Source of the DNA: Verrucomicrobiota bacterium
GTDB taxonomy: Bacteria > Verrucomicrobiota > Verrucomicrobiia > Opitutales > UBA953
Direction of reading: 5' to 3'
Length of the DNA stretch: 41,858 bases
NCBI GenBank assembly: GCA_026397965.1
Contig: JAPLTU010000066.1
Span: 1 to 41,858 of the forward strand
Part shown: piece after piece, positions 19,960 to 27,565 of the stretch
How positions within the stretch are numbered: the stretch's first letter is position 1
Layout: every line of letters starts with the position of its first letter
Position numbers and translations under genes: made by a program
Notes under the pieces: generated by a model
What the model was told of the DNA's origin: nothing
The model's input: the letters and a program-made list of their open reading frames with translations, nothing else
Database searches by the model: none

Positions 19960-21044
19960 GCCGGATGTTGCTGGCCTGTGGTGGCACCGGGGGACATTTG
20001 GCTCCGGGTATCGCCTTAGCTCAGCGACTCTCCGATGCAGGGCACGAGTGCTTGTTGATGGTGAGTAGTAAGGCCGTGGACGCCAAGATGACGGCCCCCT
20101 ATTCACGCCTGCGATTCGTGGCCGGACGGGGTCGAGGATTTGGTCCAGGCTTGATTAATAAAATTAGATTTTTCCCCGCACTCGTGGTTTCGGTTTGGTC
20201 GGCCTGGCGTTTATTACGAAAGTTTAAGCCCCAAGCGCTGGTGTGCTTTGGTGGTTTCATGAGCGTGGCCCCCGCTCTGGCCTGCCTGCTTTCGGGCGTC
20301 CCAGTCTTAGTCCACGAAGCAAATCGCCGGCCGGGCAAGGCGGTACGGTTAATCGCTCGCTTCGCCGCCGCTATTCATCTGCCCCAAGGCGTCCGCCTCG
20401 AAGGCATCGCTGAATCTCGTCAGCATGATTCGGGCTATCCGGTAAGGGCCGAGATTCGCCCCTTGGCTCGAGAGGTCGCCCGCCGCTCCTTAGGCATGCC
20501 CGCGCTCGGGCGGATGCTTCTGGTCGTCGGGGGGAGTCAAGGCGCCACGGTCTTGAACCGTTGGGTGGAAACCCATCAGGAAGAATTTTCGCAGCATGAT
20601 ATCCATGTGCTTTGTCTGACCGGGCCAGGTGGGCGCGAGGGAGAAATTCGTTCCGGAAACTCACTCATCAAATACCTGCCATTTTGCGATCAGATGGCCG
20701 CGGCGTATTCGGCGACCGATCTCGCCGTCACGCGCGCTGGGGCGGGTACCTTGGCGGAATTGGCGACCTGCCGAACGCCGGCGATTCTGGTGCCCTATCC
20801 CCAAGCCACGGACGATCATCAGACTGCCAATGCCCGTCAAGCGGCCGAGGCGGGGAGTGCGTTCCTGCTCCCCGAGCTGGAAATCTCCCGCTTAAGCGAA
20901 GCGGTATTCAGTCGTATCAATGATAAAACAATTTTGGCCAGCATGCGGGATGCGCTGGCTTTGGCGGATGCTTCGAATCGATGGGAAGAGCTCGCGCAGG
21001 AAACCATCAAACTGGCACTCGCGCAGGAGCGCGCTGCTCGATGA
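19956..21044 (+). CDS. murG: UDP-GlcNAc : lipid I N-acetylglucosaminyltransferase
   Basis: Converts lipid I to lipid II at the inner face of the membrane; 362 residues, GT28 family. The N-terminal signature GGTGGHLAPGIALA begins at residue 9. PALACLLSGVPVLVHEANRRPGK is the acceptor-side block, and the donor-binding C-terminal half has VVGGSQGATVLN, TRAGAGTLAELATCRTPAIL and PYPQATDDHQTANA. All match MurG. Overlaps the murC-murB gene by ATGA. Confidence 0.96.
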   Translation: MSRMLLACGGTGGHLAPGIALAQRLSDAGHECLLMVSSKAVDAKMTAPYSRLRFVAGRGRGFGPGLINKIRFFPALVVSVWSAWRLLRKFKPQALVCFGGFMSVAPALACLLSGVPVLVHEANRRPGKAVRLIARFAAAIHLPQGVRLEGIAESRQHDSGYPVRAEIRPLAREVARRSLGMPALGRMLLVVGGSQGATVLNRWVETHQEEFSQHDIHVLCLTGPGGREGEIRSGNSLIKYLPFCDQMAAAYSATDLAVTRAGAGTLAELATCRTPAILVPYPQATDDHQTANARQAAEAGSAFLLPELEISRLSEAVFSRINDKTILASMRDALALADASNRWEELAQETIKLALAQERAAR

Positions 21045-23323
21045 AGCCCACCGCTTCGGCCTGGTTGTTGGGCGCTTGCGGCATGGGGGTGGGACCTTTG
21101 GCAATTTATCTGAAGGGGGAAGGTTGGGATGTTTCCGGTTGGGATGACGCGACCGGGAGTCCCATGGAATTACAGTTAGCGAATGCGGAGATACCTTTGT
21201 TACGTGATCCCTGGGCCGCCGGCCGGCATCCAGAAGTGGTCGGTCGTTCGAGCGCGGTCAAAGCGGGCCATGAGGCCATGGTCTTGGCGGAAAACAAGGA
21301 AGTGCGGATTTTGCGGCGTGGTGAATTGCTGGCGGAGAGGGTCGCCGAACGGCGCTTTGTTGCCGTCTGTGGCAGTCACGGCAAGACGACCACGTGCGGG
21401 ATGATCGTCGCAGCACTCTCGACGGCCGGAGCTGACTTTGGTTATATCTTGGGCGGGCTTTTCCGCGATCCGTCCTTTCCGCCCGCCCGTTCGGCCGTTT
21501 CGTCGCCTTGGGTGGTGGCTGAAGTCGACGAAAGCGATGGCACCATCGGAGCCTTTTCGCCCGATATCACCGTCGCCGTGAATTTAGATTGGGATCATCC
21601 GGATTACTATCGAGATGAAGCGGCCTTGGAGGCCGTCTTTCGGGCATTATTCGAACGGACTCGTTCGGCGGTGATCATACCCGTCGGCAATGAGCGGCTC
21701 GAACGTCTGACCGTTGGTTTGAAAGTCCCGGTTTGGCGTGTAGGTTTAGGCGGCGACTACCAGGCGCGCCCGATCGCCGGCGATCATGCGACGTCGGTCT
21801 TGGAAGTCGGTGGACTTTTTACACCGCAACAAGTGACGCTGCCGGTCGCGGGGACTTTTAATCGTTCCAATGCGGCGATGGCCTTGGCGGTGACGCATTT
21901 TATCACCGGATCTTTATTGCCCGAGCCCATGGCGCGTTGGCGGGGAATCCGCCGGCGCCAAGATGTCCTTTTTGAACGTGCCGGGCTTCGCGTTTTGGCT
22001 GATTACGCGCATCACCCGACGGAAATTTCAGCGCTTTTACAGTGGATTAAAGAAACCCATGTGGGCCGTTTGATCGTGGTTTTCCAGCCTCATCGGCATA
22101 CACGGACGCGGCAGTATGCCGCAGAATTCAGGCAAGCCTTGGCCATGGCCGACCACGCTCTCGTGCTTCCCGTTTATGCCGCAGGTGAAACTGCCATGGA
22201 GGGGGGGCGCTCCGAGTCGGTCGTCGCCGGGACGGCACATCAATTGGTCGAAGACCGACGTCAGTTACCTTCGTTGTTAAACGATTTAAGTTCTGGCGCC
22301 GATACTGTCGTGGCCTTCGTGGGCGCGGGTGATATCGAGCGCGATGCCGAAGTTTACGCCAAAGTATTACGACGCTCAGGCGCGACGATGCTCTCCCTTG
22401 ATTTACCTGACAGGGTCGCCGGCCGACTTTCGGCCGGGTGCGTCTTGCGGGCCAATGAATCTCTCGCTCGTCGGACCACCTTAGGCGTGGGCGGAACGGC
22501 TCGCTGGTACGCCGAACCCGCGATCGTCGACGATATCGTCACGCTACTGCAAGCGGCCGCCGAACTCGACTTACGTTATTTCGTCTTAGGTCGTGGCTCC
22601 AACCTGTGGGTGCCGGATGAAGGTTATGATGGGTTAATCTTGCATCTGACTTCTCAGCATTGGGGTAACATGACTTCGCTGGGTGAAAATCACATCCGGG
22701 TCGACGGCGGCGTCCGACTCAAGGAACTTTGCGGTTTCGCAACTAAAGAAGGCTTAGCCGGCTTTGAATTTCTGGAAGGCATTCCCGGGACGCTCGGCGG
22801 CTCCTTGCGGATGAACGCCGGGGCGATGGGTGGGTGGATTTTCGATGTGGTTGAATCGATCGAATGGCTCGCCCCGCATGGTCAGGTCCGGGCCGCCCGC
22901 CGCGATTGTTTTGATGCGCTCTATCGGGATTGCCCTCAATTGCACGGGGCCGTGGTGCTCTCGGCGGTACTCCGCGCTTCGGGCAAGGATGACGGCACGC
23001 TCATCCGCCAGCGCATGGAGGCGATGTCCGTTAAGCGTCGCGCCTCGCAGCCGCGCGAAGCGAGCGCCGGCTGTGTTTTCCGCAACCCGGTCGCGGATAA
23101 GGCCGGCCGGCTGATCGAAGTTAGCGGACTGAAGGGTCACCAAGTTGGGGCCGTGACGGTTTCGCCCGTGCACGGAAATTTCCTCGTCAATTTGGGAGAA
23201 GCTAAGTCGGCTGACTTTATCTCGGTGATGCGCGAGGTGCGAGCATCGGTAAAACTTAGCCAGGGGGTCGAACTTCAACCTGAAATCATCGCGCTTGGGC
23301 GCGAGTGGAAGGATCTCTTATGA
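21041..23323 (+). CDS. murC-murB: MurC-MurB fusion: UDP-MurNAc L-alanine ligase and UDP-enolpyruvyl-GlcNAc reductase
   Basis: One frame of 760 residues joins two enzymes that act in consecutive cytoplasmic steps: MurB makes UDP-MurNAc with NADPH and FAD, MurC adds L-Ala. The MurC half (about 1-455) has LGACGMGVGPLA, the ATP site GSHGKTTT at 111-118, EVDESDGT, and NLDWDHPDYY and LADYAHHPTEI. The MurB half (about 470-760) has RRTTLGVGGTARWY, LGRGSNLWVPDEG, GIPGTLGGSLRMNAGAMGG and SAGCVFRNPVADKAG. The proton-donor position, Ser229 in E. coli MurB, is Cys678 here, a variant seen in other MurBs. The real start is at 21041 (ATGA overlap with murG); a longer frame from 20981 is not needed. There is no separate linker domain. 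Confidence 0.94.
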   Translation: MKPTASAWLLGACGMGVGPLAIYLKGEGWDVSGWDDATGSPMELQLANAEIPLLRDPWAAGRHPEVVGRSSAVKAGHEAMVLAENKEVRILRRGELLAERVAERRFVAVCGSHGKTTTCGMIVAALSTAGADFGYILGGLFRDPSFPPARSAVSSPWVVAEVDESDGTIGAFSPDITVAVNLDWDHPDYYRDEAALEAVFRALFERTRSAVIIPVGNERLERLTVGLKVPVWRVGLGGDYQARPIAGDHATSVLEVGGLFTPQQVTLPVAGTFNRSNAAMALAVTHFITGSLLPEPMARWRGIRRRQDVLFERAGLRVLADYAHHPTEISALLQWIKETHVGRLIVVFQPHRHTRTRQYAAEFRQALAMADHALVLPVYAAGETAMEGGRSESVVAGTAHQLVEDRRQLPSLLNDLSSGADTVVAFVGAGDIERDAEVYAKVLRRSGATMLSLDLPDRVAGRLSAGCVLRANESLARRTTLGVGGTARWYAEPAIVDDIVTLLQAAAELDLRYFVLGRGSNLWVPDEGYDGLILHLTSQHWGNMTSLGENHIRVDGGVRLKELCGFATKEGLAGFEFLEGIPGTLGGSLRMNAGAMGGWIFDVVESIEWLAPHGQVRAARRDCFDALYRDCPQLHGAVVLSAVLRASGKDDGTLIRQRMEAMSVKRRASQPREASAGCVFRNPVADKAGRLIEVSGLKGHQVGAVTVSPVHGNFLVNLGEAKSADFISVMREVRASVKLSQGVELQPEIIALGREWKDLL

Positions 23324-24246: not shown

Positions 24247-25212
24247 ATGGGCTTCTTCGATCGATTCTTAGGTAAACGTCGGGACGCTTTCATGGGCCCC
24301 TCCGATCGGGACTGGCGTTCCCTTGTACCGCAAGAAGTTAATCGGGTGCCCGAGGATGATATCGGCCGCAAGCGCGCCGTCCGGAGTCGTCTGCCGTTGG
24401 TCCTTAGTATTTTATTTTTTGTGGCCTTGGGCGTCGTCATCTATCTCTCGGTCGATGAATCCGTACCGGTCGCCGCCGGACGGAGTTTCCGTTATAAGAC
24501 CGATGGTTTCTTGCCCGCAGCCTTTGTGCAGAAAGTAATTTCGGCCGGGTTTGAAGGGCCCGCCAAGAACGTCCGGGCGATCAAGGCCGACTTAGAAACC
24601 GATAATCAGGTCCTGGCGGCCGATGTGCGCCGGCGAGCCGATGGCACTTTGGAAATCGTCCTCCGCGAACGTGTCGCGGTTGCCAAAATCGCCTCAGCGC
24701 CACCGACCGGGCCGATGGTGGTGCGTCTGGTTAGCCCCGACGGGCAGACCTTCGCGGGCACGGGTTATTCTGAGCAGACCATTCGGAGCTTACCAGAAAT
24801 CCAAGATTTCCGTTCGACCGGCACGGGCGATCAATTGGCGATTGAAGGCATCGAAGTGGTCGGTCCCTTCCTGCTGGCGGCCCGGACGAGTTACGAGCGA
24901 TTCTATCTACAATGGGCATCGGTTTCTTTGCGCGATTGTTTCGGTGCTCAAGAAGACGCTCCGGGATCGAATCTTAACGTGACGGTGCGGACAGCGGCGC
25001 AACCGACGGATCGTCCGCCATTGGTCGGCATCATTTTCTCCACCGCTAACTGGCGGAAAGAGTTGGCGCTGTTACCCCGGATTAGGATCGATGAATACCT
25101 GCGGATGCCGAACGCGACGGCTCAGGCTTACGTCCTGAAACTTTCCATTCAAAACCGTACCATCTCTCCGCCCGTCCCCGAACCCCGCCTCGTGCCCGCC
25201 CCCCTCCGATGA
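24247..25212 (+). CDS. ftsQ: FtsQ-like cell division protein
   Basis: Bitopic protein of 321 residues between ddl and ftsA, the normal ftsQ position. It has a cytoplasmic, basic N-terminus (about 1-55), one membrane helix (about 56-76, LPLVLSILFFVALGVVIYLS), then a periplasmic domain. A POTRA-like stretch is plausible at about 80-160 (RSFRYKTDGFLPAAFVQKVI, then RRADGTLEIVLRERVAVAKI). Sequence identity to known FtsQ is low by eye, so the call rests on topology and position. Its stop overlaps ftsA as ATGA. Confidence 0.72.
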   Translation: MGFFDRFLGKRRDAFMGPSDRDWRSLVPQEVNRVPEDDIGRKRAVRSRLPLVLSILFFVALGVVIYLSVDESVPVAAGRSFRYKTDGFLPAAFVQKVISAGFEGPAKNVRAIKADLETDNQVLAADVRRRADGTLEIVLRERVAVAKIASAPPTGPMVVRLVSPDGQTFAGTGYSEQTIRSLPEIQDFRSTGTGDQLAIEGIEVVGPFLLAARTSYERFYLQWASVSLRDCFGAQEDAPGSNLNVTVRTAAQPTDRPPLVGIIFSTANWRKELALLPRIRIDEYLRMPNATAQAYVLKLSIQNRTISPPVPEPRLVPAPLR

Positions 25213-26431
25213 CCCCCAAACTGCTTCCTTCTCTTATCGCGGTCATTGATATCGGTACGCACAAGACCGTCAGCCTCGTCGGCCAGATGATTAATGGTAA
25301 GGCCCGGATGTTGGGCTTCAGCGAACGTCGGACCGATGGCGTGGTCAAAGGCACTGTGATCGACCTCGAGCGGCTCCACCATTGCGTACATGAAGTCGTC
25401 AATGACGTTGAACGTAGTTCGGGTCGCTCGATTGAGCACGTCTACCTTTCACTTTCCGGACCAGCAGCGGAAGGGGAACGAATCAAGGGCATTCACGCGA
25501 TTCCAGCGCACGACGGCAAAGTTACCGCCAAGGATGTCACGGACGCCATCGCATCTGCGAAGCGTCTGGAGCCGCCGGCAGGGCGGGCCACGTTACTCTA
25601 CATGCGCCAGCCGACGACGATCGACGGCCGCGCGGTGGCCAATCCGGTGGGCATGGCCGGCAAGCGTTTGGAAGTCCATTTCTGGCGCGTAACGATGGAA
25701 GAGGGCAACATGCGGATGCGCGTCGGCATGGTGAACGGCATGAGCATCAAAGTCCGTGATTTTATCTTGGCTTCGCCTGCGCGACGGCGAGCGATTCTGA
25801 CAAGCAAGGCGTGCTGGTTGTCGACATGGGCGCCGGCACGACTGATTGGATTCTCTATTACAAGGAGCACATCCTTTGTGCGGGATCGATTCCGGTCGGC
25901 GGCGAGCATATGACCAATGACCTGAGCGTAGCTTTGCGGATCAGTCGCGAGACGGCCGAAGACCTTAAGCTTCGTTTCGGTTCGGCCCTACATCGTGAGG
26001 CGGACGCCAATCAGACCATCTGGAAAGACGGCGACCGTGGGCTCGGCGATCAGCAATTCAACCGCGGGACGATCACGCAGGTGCTTTCCTTGCGTTATCA
26101 GGAGACGTTCGAATATGTTAAGAAAGATATCATGCAGCATCTCGAACAGCTTTTCCCGGGACACGCGGTGAAGTTGGACCAATACTTCCTGCCGGCGGGC
26201 ATCATCCTGACGGGCGGCTCGGCGAATTTGGCCGACGCTGCCGACGCCGTCCATGCCATCATGCAATTACCGACGCGAATCGGCGTCCCGACTTTCGAAA
26301 ATGATTCGCTGCGCAAGCCGGAGTATGCGGGAGTCGTCGGCCTGATGACCGCCGCGATTACGGATTCGCCACCGCCGGTGCGTCGACAGCGAGGTTTTTG
26401 GGCGTCGCTCAAAGACCTCTTCCGCTTCTAA
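25209..26431 (+). pseudogene. ftsA: ftsA, interrupted by a single-base frameshift
   Basis: Two overlapping frames together give one FtsA-like actin-fold ATPase that would tether FtsZ to the membrane. The first (25209-25913) has IAVIDIGTHKTVSLVG, then the 1C domain through SIKVRDFILAS, and then loses similarity. The second resumes with VLVVDMGAGTTDW (GTG at 25811) and carries GSIPVGGEHMTNDL, IILTGGSANLAD and a C-terminal amphipathic RGFWASLKDLFRF like FtsA's membrane-targeting helix. The downstream frame is -1 relative to the first, as expected after loss of one base near 25780-25785, where ILASPA should join TASDSDKQGV. No slippery heptamer is visible. Either a true pseudogene or a sequence error; translated alone, the first part would be a 234-residue fragment lacking half the fold. 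Confidence 0.82.
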
Positions 26432-26434
26432 ACC

Positions 26435-27565
26435 ATGGAACGCCCGCCTTCCATTCTCTTGGTTGGTTTAGGGGGTGCGGGCTGCTCGATTGTCGCTCGG
26501 CTGGCCGCCCGGTTGCCGCCGGAAATCGGGGTGGCCCTGATCGATACGGACACACGCTCCTTTCAGCAACTTCCCGGTGCTACGGTCGTGCAAATCGGTC
26601 GGGCCCAGACCCGGGGCATGGGGACGGGCGGCGAAGCGGCCTTGGGTAGCGCTTCGGCCGAATCCGATGAAGCCGCTTTACGCCGGATTTTTACCGGCGT
26701 GCCCATCGTAGTAATGGTCACGGGTCTTGGGGGTGGGACGGGAAGCGGGGCCGCGGCCGTCGTCGCCGGTTATGCCGCCGAGGTCGGGGCGACTGTGTTG
26801 ACGTTCGCGACCATGCCCTTTTCGCATGAGGGAGAACGACGCCAACGCCAAGCCAACGAAGCCACGGGAGTGTTGGGCTTAAAATGTCACGGGCTGGTGG
26901 TCGTCCATAACGATTTACTTTTGCAACAAGTCGCCACCGACGCTCCGCTTTCAGAATCTTTTGCGGCGGCGGATGCTTGGGTGGGCGGTGCTTTGCGTGC
27001 GCTGGCGGGAGCCTTTACCCCTGGGGCGTTGGTGGCGGCTGACCCGGCGGCCTTGCGTTCGATTCTCGCTAACCCTGGCTCACCCACCCTCTTTGCTTTT
27101 GGAGTGGGCACCGGAGAAGGCGCCGCGATGAAGGCCGCCCGTGCCGCCAGTGAATGTCCTTTGGCGCACGGCCCCAGTTCCGTCACGAAAGTTGCATCGC
27201 TCTTCGTCCATGTGACGGGTGGTCCGACTTTGACGACGACTGCGGCCTTTGAGGCAGTCGCTGCGGTCCGGACGCGTTTTGGTGGCGAGACCTCCACGAT
27301 TGTCTGCGCCCGGGTTAATCCTGACCTTGGCGATCGAATCGAAGTTTCGGTTTTGGGAGCTTCGCTGCCAGCGCCCAAGAGTCCGGCGAAGGCCAAGAAG
27401 GGCGCCAAAGCTGGCGACCCTTCGCAGCCGATGTTTGAGTTCGCAACCGAGGAAGCCATGCGCCGAGGACTGTTTGGTGGGACTCCGATGACTTTTATCG
27501 ACGGTCAGGATATTGATGTACCGACTTACATTCGGAAGGCCGTACGCTTGCCGGCGTCGCCCTAA
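26435..27565 (+). CDS. ftsZ: Divergent FtsZ with altered T7 loop
   Basis: Tubulin-like protein of 376 residues, last gene of the dcw cluster. The nucleotide side is intact: GLGGAGCSIV at the N-terminus, TRGMGTGGEAALG, the tubulin signature GLGGGTGSG at 97-105, PFSHEGERRQ, and HNDLLL. An ungapped alignment to E. coli FtsZ from AANDVLKG to the T7 loop puts Ala201, Asp203 and Ala206 at the places of Asn207, Asp209 and Asp212, so two of three key catalytic-loop residues are replaced. A short charged linker (PKSPAKAKKGAKAGDP) precedes a C-terminal peptide with DVPTYIRKAVRL, like the conserved DIPAFLR motif. It follows the frameshifted ftsA by three bases. A canonical second ftsZ elsewhere is possible. 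Confidence 0.88.
   Translation: MERPPSILLVGLGGAGCSIVARLAARLPPEIGVALIDTDTRSFQQLPGATVVQIGRAQTRGMGTGGEAALGSASAESDEAALRRIFTGVPIVVMVTGLGGGTGSGAAAVVAGYAAEVGATVLTFATMPFSHEGERRQRQANEATGVLGLKCHGLVVVHNDLLLQQVATDAPLSESFAAADAWVGGALRALAGAFTPGALVAADPAALRSILANPGSPTLFAFGVGTGEGAAMKAARAASECPLAHGPSSVTKVASLFVHVTGGPTLTTTAAFEAVAAVRTRFGGETSTIVCARVNPDLGDRIEVSVLGASLPAPKSPAKAKKGAKAGDPSQPMFEFATEEAMRRGLFGGTPMTFIDGQDIDVPTYIRKAVRLPASP

Follow-up and report, generated by a model that had tools for sequence, protein, structure and literature searches.

The FtsZ of an Opitutales genus has lost two of the three conserved T7-loop residues

Structures of Staphylococcus aureus FtsZ identify six interface residues as key to subunit association and GTP hydrolysis (D46, Q48, R143, N208, D210, and D213) and describe them as conserved across species (PMC8936486). 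In these structures, a swing of D210 positions the attacking water, which the T3 residue G72 helps to hold. D213 and R143 supply the environment, Q48 locks K+ in the T7 loop, and N208 helps to hold the loop (PMC8936486). The substitutions N208L, D210N, and D213N each abolish assembly of S. aureus FtsZ; the Q48A protein assembles, with reduced GTPase activity (PMC8936486). In Escherichia coli, FtsZ D212A hydrolyzes GTP slowly and forms filaments, and in wild-type cells given additional FtsA it gives rise to extra septa (PMC4383033). In E. coli strains that carry suppressors, division can proceed with FtsZ D212G or Q47K (PMC5405962). The FtsZ proteins of Verrucomicrobiota are known to be divergent (PMC1845146; PMC9871819), and accelerated evolution of ftsZ has been stated for Methylacidiphilum and Prosthecobacter (PMC2474590). 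What is apparently new here is the T7 pattern, of which we found no description in the literature searched; an earlier mention may still exist.

The window analyzed here is a stretch of 41,858 nucleotides from an Opitutales MAG of 2.18 Mb, 96.5% complete, whose nearest named relatives are UBA953 and UBA7397. Most of the close relatives are MAGs from lakes, recorded as Opitutae (e.g., UBA953, UBA7397, BS6, and BS10), and other MAGs carry copies of the same ftsZ at 97 to 99% identity. The gene closes a dcw cluster, directly after ftsA, in the order rsmH, an FtsI-type penicillin-binding protein gene, murE, murF, mraY, ftsW, murG, a murC-murB fusion, a gene in the ftsQ position, ftsA, and ftsZ. 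The features concerned are the following.

24247 to 25212, forward strand: probable ftsQ, named by position only
25209 to 26431, forward strand: ftsA, directly upstream of ftsZ; frameshifted in the window assembly by a 10-bp deletion and intact in relatives
26435 to 27565, forward strand: ftsZ, 376 amino acids, the sole FtsZ/tubulin-family gene found in the genome
26555 to 26557, forward strand: codon of Arg41, aligned with E. coli Q47 and S. aureus Q48, the residue that locks K+ in T7 (PMC8936486)
26633 to 26635, forward strand: codon of Glu67 in loop T3, aligned with E. coli N73
27035 to 27052, forward strand: T7 loop core AADPAA, aligned without gaps and found genus-wide, comprising A201 (E. 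coli N207), D203 (D209; codon 27041 to 27043), P204 (F210), and A206 (D212; codon 27050 to 27052)
27515 to 27535, forward strand: C-terminal peptide DVPTYIR, of the FtsA-binding type by sequence, with its DVP-YIR positions invariant in the genus

The ftsZ ORF matches PF00091, the tubulin/FtsZ GTPase domain, at 97.1 bits (cut-off 33) and FtsZ_C, PF12327, at 34.6 bits (cut-off 27). Its score against the NCBIfam equivalog TIGR00065 is 181.1 bits, below the curated cut-off of 295.2, and we therefore regard the protein as a divergent orthologue. An earlier, sequence-only reading of this DNA had noted the GGGTGSG tubulin signature, an EGERR block, and the DVPTYIR tail, and all three were seen. Judged by homology and context, the ORF is an FtsZ orthologue, with domain, signature, dcw position, and tail all in place. 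The probable ftsQ has no Pfam or NCBIfam match. Further upstream, murC and murB are seemingly fused in one 780-aa frame (20981 to 23323). The ftsA frame is split by a 10-bp deletion between 25776 and 25777; all compared relatives have these bases. In nearly all other genomes of the family in which no contig end interrupts it, ftsA is one open frame. Because the deletion is seen in the window assembly only, it more likely reflects a misassembly or a mutation at the strain level than any biological connection with the changes in FtsZ.

The canonical T7 pattern NxDxxD, formed in E. coli by N207, D209, and D212, is replaced in the window FtsZ by A201, D203, and A206, just as the sequence-only reading had proposed. 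A phmmer alignment with the S. aureus FtsZ structure chains has no gap across T7 (vaaDpaAlrsilanpgs versus vNlDfaDvktimsnqgs), and MAFFT alignment with E. coli FtsZ pairs N207 with A201, D209 with D203, and D212 with A206. These ungapped alignments, anchored by the NPGS/NQGS that follows T7, rule out a shift that would restore Asn and Asp. An assembly error in the loop is likewise ruled out, as the members of the genus are all concordant. Altogether the protein lacks three of the six key interface residues, through Q47R, N207A, and D212A, and retains D45, R142, and D209. Of the canonical Q47-R142 pair, R142 is thus present, as R136, with Arg41 in the place of Q47. The protein also differs from E. 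coli FtsZ in having Ser18 for N24, Pro204 for F210, and Glu67 for N73 in T3. On the nucleotide side, T4, E138, R142, N165, and an acid at position 186 are retained, which, along with the FtsA-type tail, bears out the suggestion that the protein probably still binds nucleotide and, among its partners, FtsA. An AlphaFold model built with 26 genus sequences had a mean pLDDT of 57 and was unusable from T7 onward.

The altered loop is a property of the whole genus. Each of the 37 distinct genus sequences spanning it has Ala, Pro, or Ser at position 207 (E. coli numbering), Asp at 209, and Ala, Val, or Ser at 212. Position 47 is Arg in 27 of 36, with Ala, Ser, or Asn in the remainder. Neither D203 nor the DVP-YIR positions of the C terminus vary among 26 aligned genus proteins; D209 is invariant and the FtsA-type tail retained across the entire family, and R142 is kept in nearly all of the genus. 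By the Nei-Gojobori method, dN/dS had a median of 0.14 over 72 pairs and was 0.026 against the nearest relative. Fixation of these residues, the invariant tail, and the low dN/dS together mark ftsZ as a working gene, and the low dN/dS with open frames across the genus rules out a pseudogene. Loss of the T7 residues is real and genus-wide, and the gene is under purifying selection.

We searched for FtsZ in the family (79 genomes), the class (189 genomes), and the phylum (194 genomes) and compared 222 distinct sequences, E. coli included. The sampled sequences are those of Verrucomicrobiota and E. coli, and for T7 conservation in other phyla we rely on the literature. Among the other Opitutales, N207 is retained in 40 of 45 sequences and position 209 is acidic in 45 of 45, and 212 is acidic in just 1 of 45. 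Other orders of the class (L053-L082 and L133-L172) present the mirror image: 212 is acidic in 65 of 73 and 209 in 19 of 73, the acid at 209 being gone, often to Gly, in the other 54. In other classes, 209 is acidic in 33 of 42 and 212 in 25 of 42. These counts per order make loss of D212 a feature of Opitutales. The idea of a division variant specific to this lineage thus holds in part: the variant is lineage-wide, and loss of N207 with F210P marks the window genus and its sister genus g127, but loss of D212 occurs in 44 of the 45 other Opitutales. Likewise, the comparison with other Opitutia that had been called for finds, among the other Opitutales, the N207 loss distinctive and the D212 loss widespread. 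In g127, positions 207 and 210 are both Pro and 212 is Ala; Q47R, present in most of its members, is a further addition of the window genus.

A second sister genus, g22 (L095-L097, L099-L101, L107, and L108), has lost R142 in 8 of 8 sequences and D45 in 7 of 8, with Arg or Lys for N207. Though far more decayed, its FtsZ still has open frames, a tail of the form D-PT-xR, and D209; no FtsZ_C match was found in the two g22 genomes tested. In the family f29, two single-contig genomes of about 2.3 Mb carry a very divergent FtsZ (L203 and L204) in which T7 is barely alignable, and neither has an FtsZ_C match. In genus g90, bacterial tubulin gene pairs occur alongside a normal ftsZ (L173 and L174; genomes G164 and G160), and G164 has two of these pairs, separated by about 220 kb on a single contig. 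Across the sequences compared, T7 is loosened widely in Verrucomicrobiota, and the loop of the window genus stands at one end of that range.

Outside the family, at least one of the two T7 acids is present in 156 of 160 sequences and neither in 4. Fisher's test on the acids at 209 and 212 gave an extreme value, but the test is unfair, since the sequences share kinship. On a maximum-likelihood tree built without the T7 columns, the minimum number of changes was 11 at position 209, 16 at 212, and 23 at 207. A dependent two-trait model was preferred over an independent one (likelihood ratio 24.2, p = 7e-5), and a ratio that high did not occur in any of 100 null simulations. The preference held, with ratios of 21 to 30, without the window family, without long branches, and on a FastTree topology. 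The fitted loss rate of the 209 acid was 0.43 to 0.50 when 212 is acidic and 0.01 to 0.04 when it is not. A sign test on independent pairs, with 7 supported pairs only, was not significant, and taken alone the small number of tips lacking both acids is unremarkable (4 or fewer in 20 of 100 simulations). A rule that at least one T7 acid is kept across the phylum is therefore likely, not proven.

We favor, at a probability of roughly 0.6, the explanation that this is the sole and genuine division FtsZ of its host, one that binds GTP, polymerizes, and is tethered by FtsA, with slow or re-wired GTP hydrolysis. The protein would bind GTP and then polymerize head to tail, and its C-terminal peptide would tether it through FtsA. 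The composite inter-subunit site would be reduced to D209 of T7 and R142 of the neighboring subunit. Because Q47, N207, and D212 are gone and these two remain, hydrolysis would be slow and rest on D209, the counterpart of the water-positioning S. aureus D210. As a hypothesis, Glu67, the acid in T3 of the other subunit, perhaps aids catalysis. Filaments would then turn over slowly, or other factors would drive their turnover. Slow hydrolysis is the most likely outcome by analogy with D212A and Q48A, of which D212A is a limited guide, the extra septa in E. coli having arisen in a wild-type background. We count in favor of this explanation the genus-wide loop pattern with its invariant D209, the low dN/dS, the single FtsZ in the genome, the retained tail, an intact ftsA in relatives, the water-placing role of S. 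aureus D210, the retention of at least one acid in 156 of 160 sequences, the preference for dependent loss, and the D212A, D212G, Q47K, and Q48A mutants. Two points temper it. Since N208L, D210N, and D213N each block assembly in S. aureus, a protein without two of the three side chains might not assemble uncompensated. Moreover, retention of D209 may be structural rather than catalytic, given that g22 keeps it despite the loss of R142.

Two other readings keep FtsZ as the division polymer and differ in the fate of catalysis. The active site may have been rebuilt, with the T3 residue Glu67 of the nucleotide-binding subunit replacing D212 and an enzyme of ordinary speed as the result. Position 73 is indeed Glu in every genus member covering it and Asp or Glu in most of the phylum, against Asn in E. 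coli, and the water-holding G72 of S. aureus T3 lies two positions off (PMC8936486). However, the T3 acid also occurs in lineages that have both T7 acids and so is not tied to loss of D212, and N207 and Q47 are gone as well; we consider a rebuilt site rather unlikely. We are as doubtful of a GTP-bound scaffold that does not hydrolyze at all, its rings dismantled by other factors or by dilution, akin to the non-hydrolyzing site of the alpha/beta-tubulin dimer. The loss of three of six key residues would suit such a scaffold, as would the tolerance of R142 loss in g22 with frame and tail intact. Yet invariance of D209 in the family and near-invariance of R142 in the genus would be unexpected if catalysis were gone, and we identified no disassembly factor. 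A bolder synthesis is that a free-living lineage divides with an FtsZ polymer that either lacks GTP hydrolysis or uses a relocated catalytic acid, and that Verrucomicrobiota FtsZ needs one T7 acid, which one differing by lineage; we hold it only tentatively, as an outside chance.

The remaining readings take the canonical task away from this protein. FtsZ might be dispensable or decaying, with division left to another system such as MreB, a scheme put forward for those members of the superphylum that have no FtsZ: MreB is present, Chlamydiae and Planctomycetes lack FtsZ (PMC5147048), and ftsA is frameshifted in the window MAG. Purifying selection and open frames across the genus, an intact ftsA in relatives, and the retained tail argue against this, and we think it very improbable. 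A second, canonical FtsZ doing the normal job, as the sequence-only reading had also suggested, seems scarcely credible. At 96.5% completeness, the assembly falls short of the full genome, and two genomes of the comparison, G029 and G272, have two FtsZ matches each. But the window genome yielded one PF00091 match and no second FtsZ, and no canonical copy was found among the sequences read from the 79 family genomes searched, with the second match of G272 left out. That match is on another contig, in a bin that is fragmented. In G029, two different ftsZ genes (L008 and L050) lie on separate contigs of one MAG; both have the genus-type loop, and the pair is probably a mixture of strains.

How far division depends on GTP hydrolysis and treadmilling by FtsZ is a central question, usually probed with sick mutants. 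Here, natural lineages live with the altered positions: Opitutales without D212, many other orders of the class without the acid at 209, and the window genus without N207, Q47, and D212. Comparing these FtsZs would reveal which parts of the composite site are dispensable and the route of turnover without them.

With canonical FtsZ from E. coli and S. aureus, the window protein shares PF00091 and FtsZ_C, GGGTGSG, D45, R142, D209, the dcw place after ftsA, and an FtsA-binding tail; it differs in lacking Q47, N207, and D212 and in falling below the TIGR00065 cut-off. The FtsZs of other Opitutales and Verrucomicrobiota belong to the same divergent family, with D212 already gone in Opitutales, but most other Opitutales retain N207 and F210, both of which the window genus and g127 have lost. 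Methylacidiphilum and Prosthecobacter are likewise Verrucomicrobiota with fast-evolving ftsZ, although the paper that says so (PMC2474590) does not describe the T7 pattern and states the acceleration as data not shown. The laboratory mutants D212A, D212G, Q47K, and S. aureus Q48A affect the same positions and show slow GTPase activity, filaments, or division only with suppressors. In contrast, the changes in the window FtsZ are natural, combined in one protein, and fixed in a lineage that has it as its sole FtsZ.
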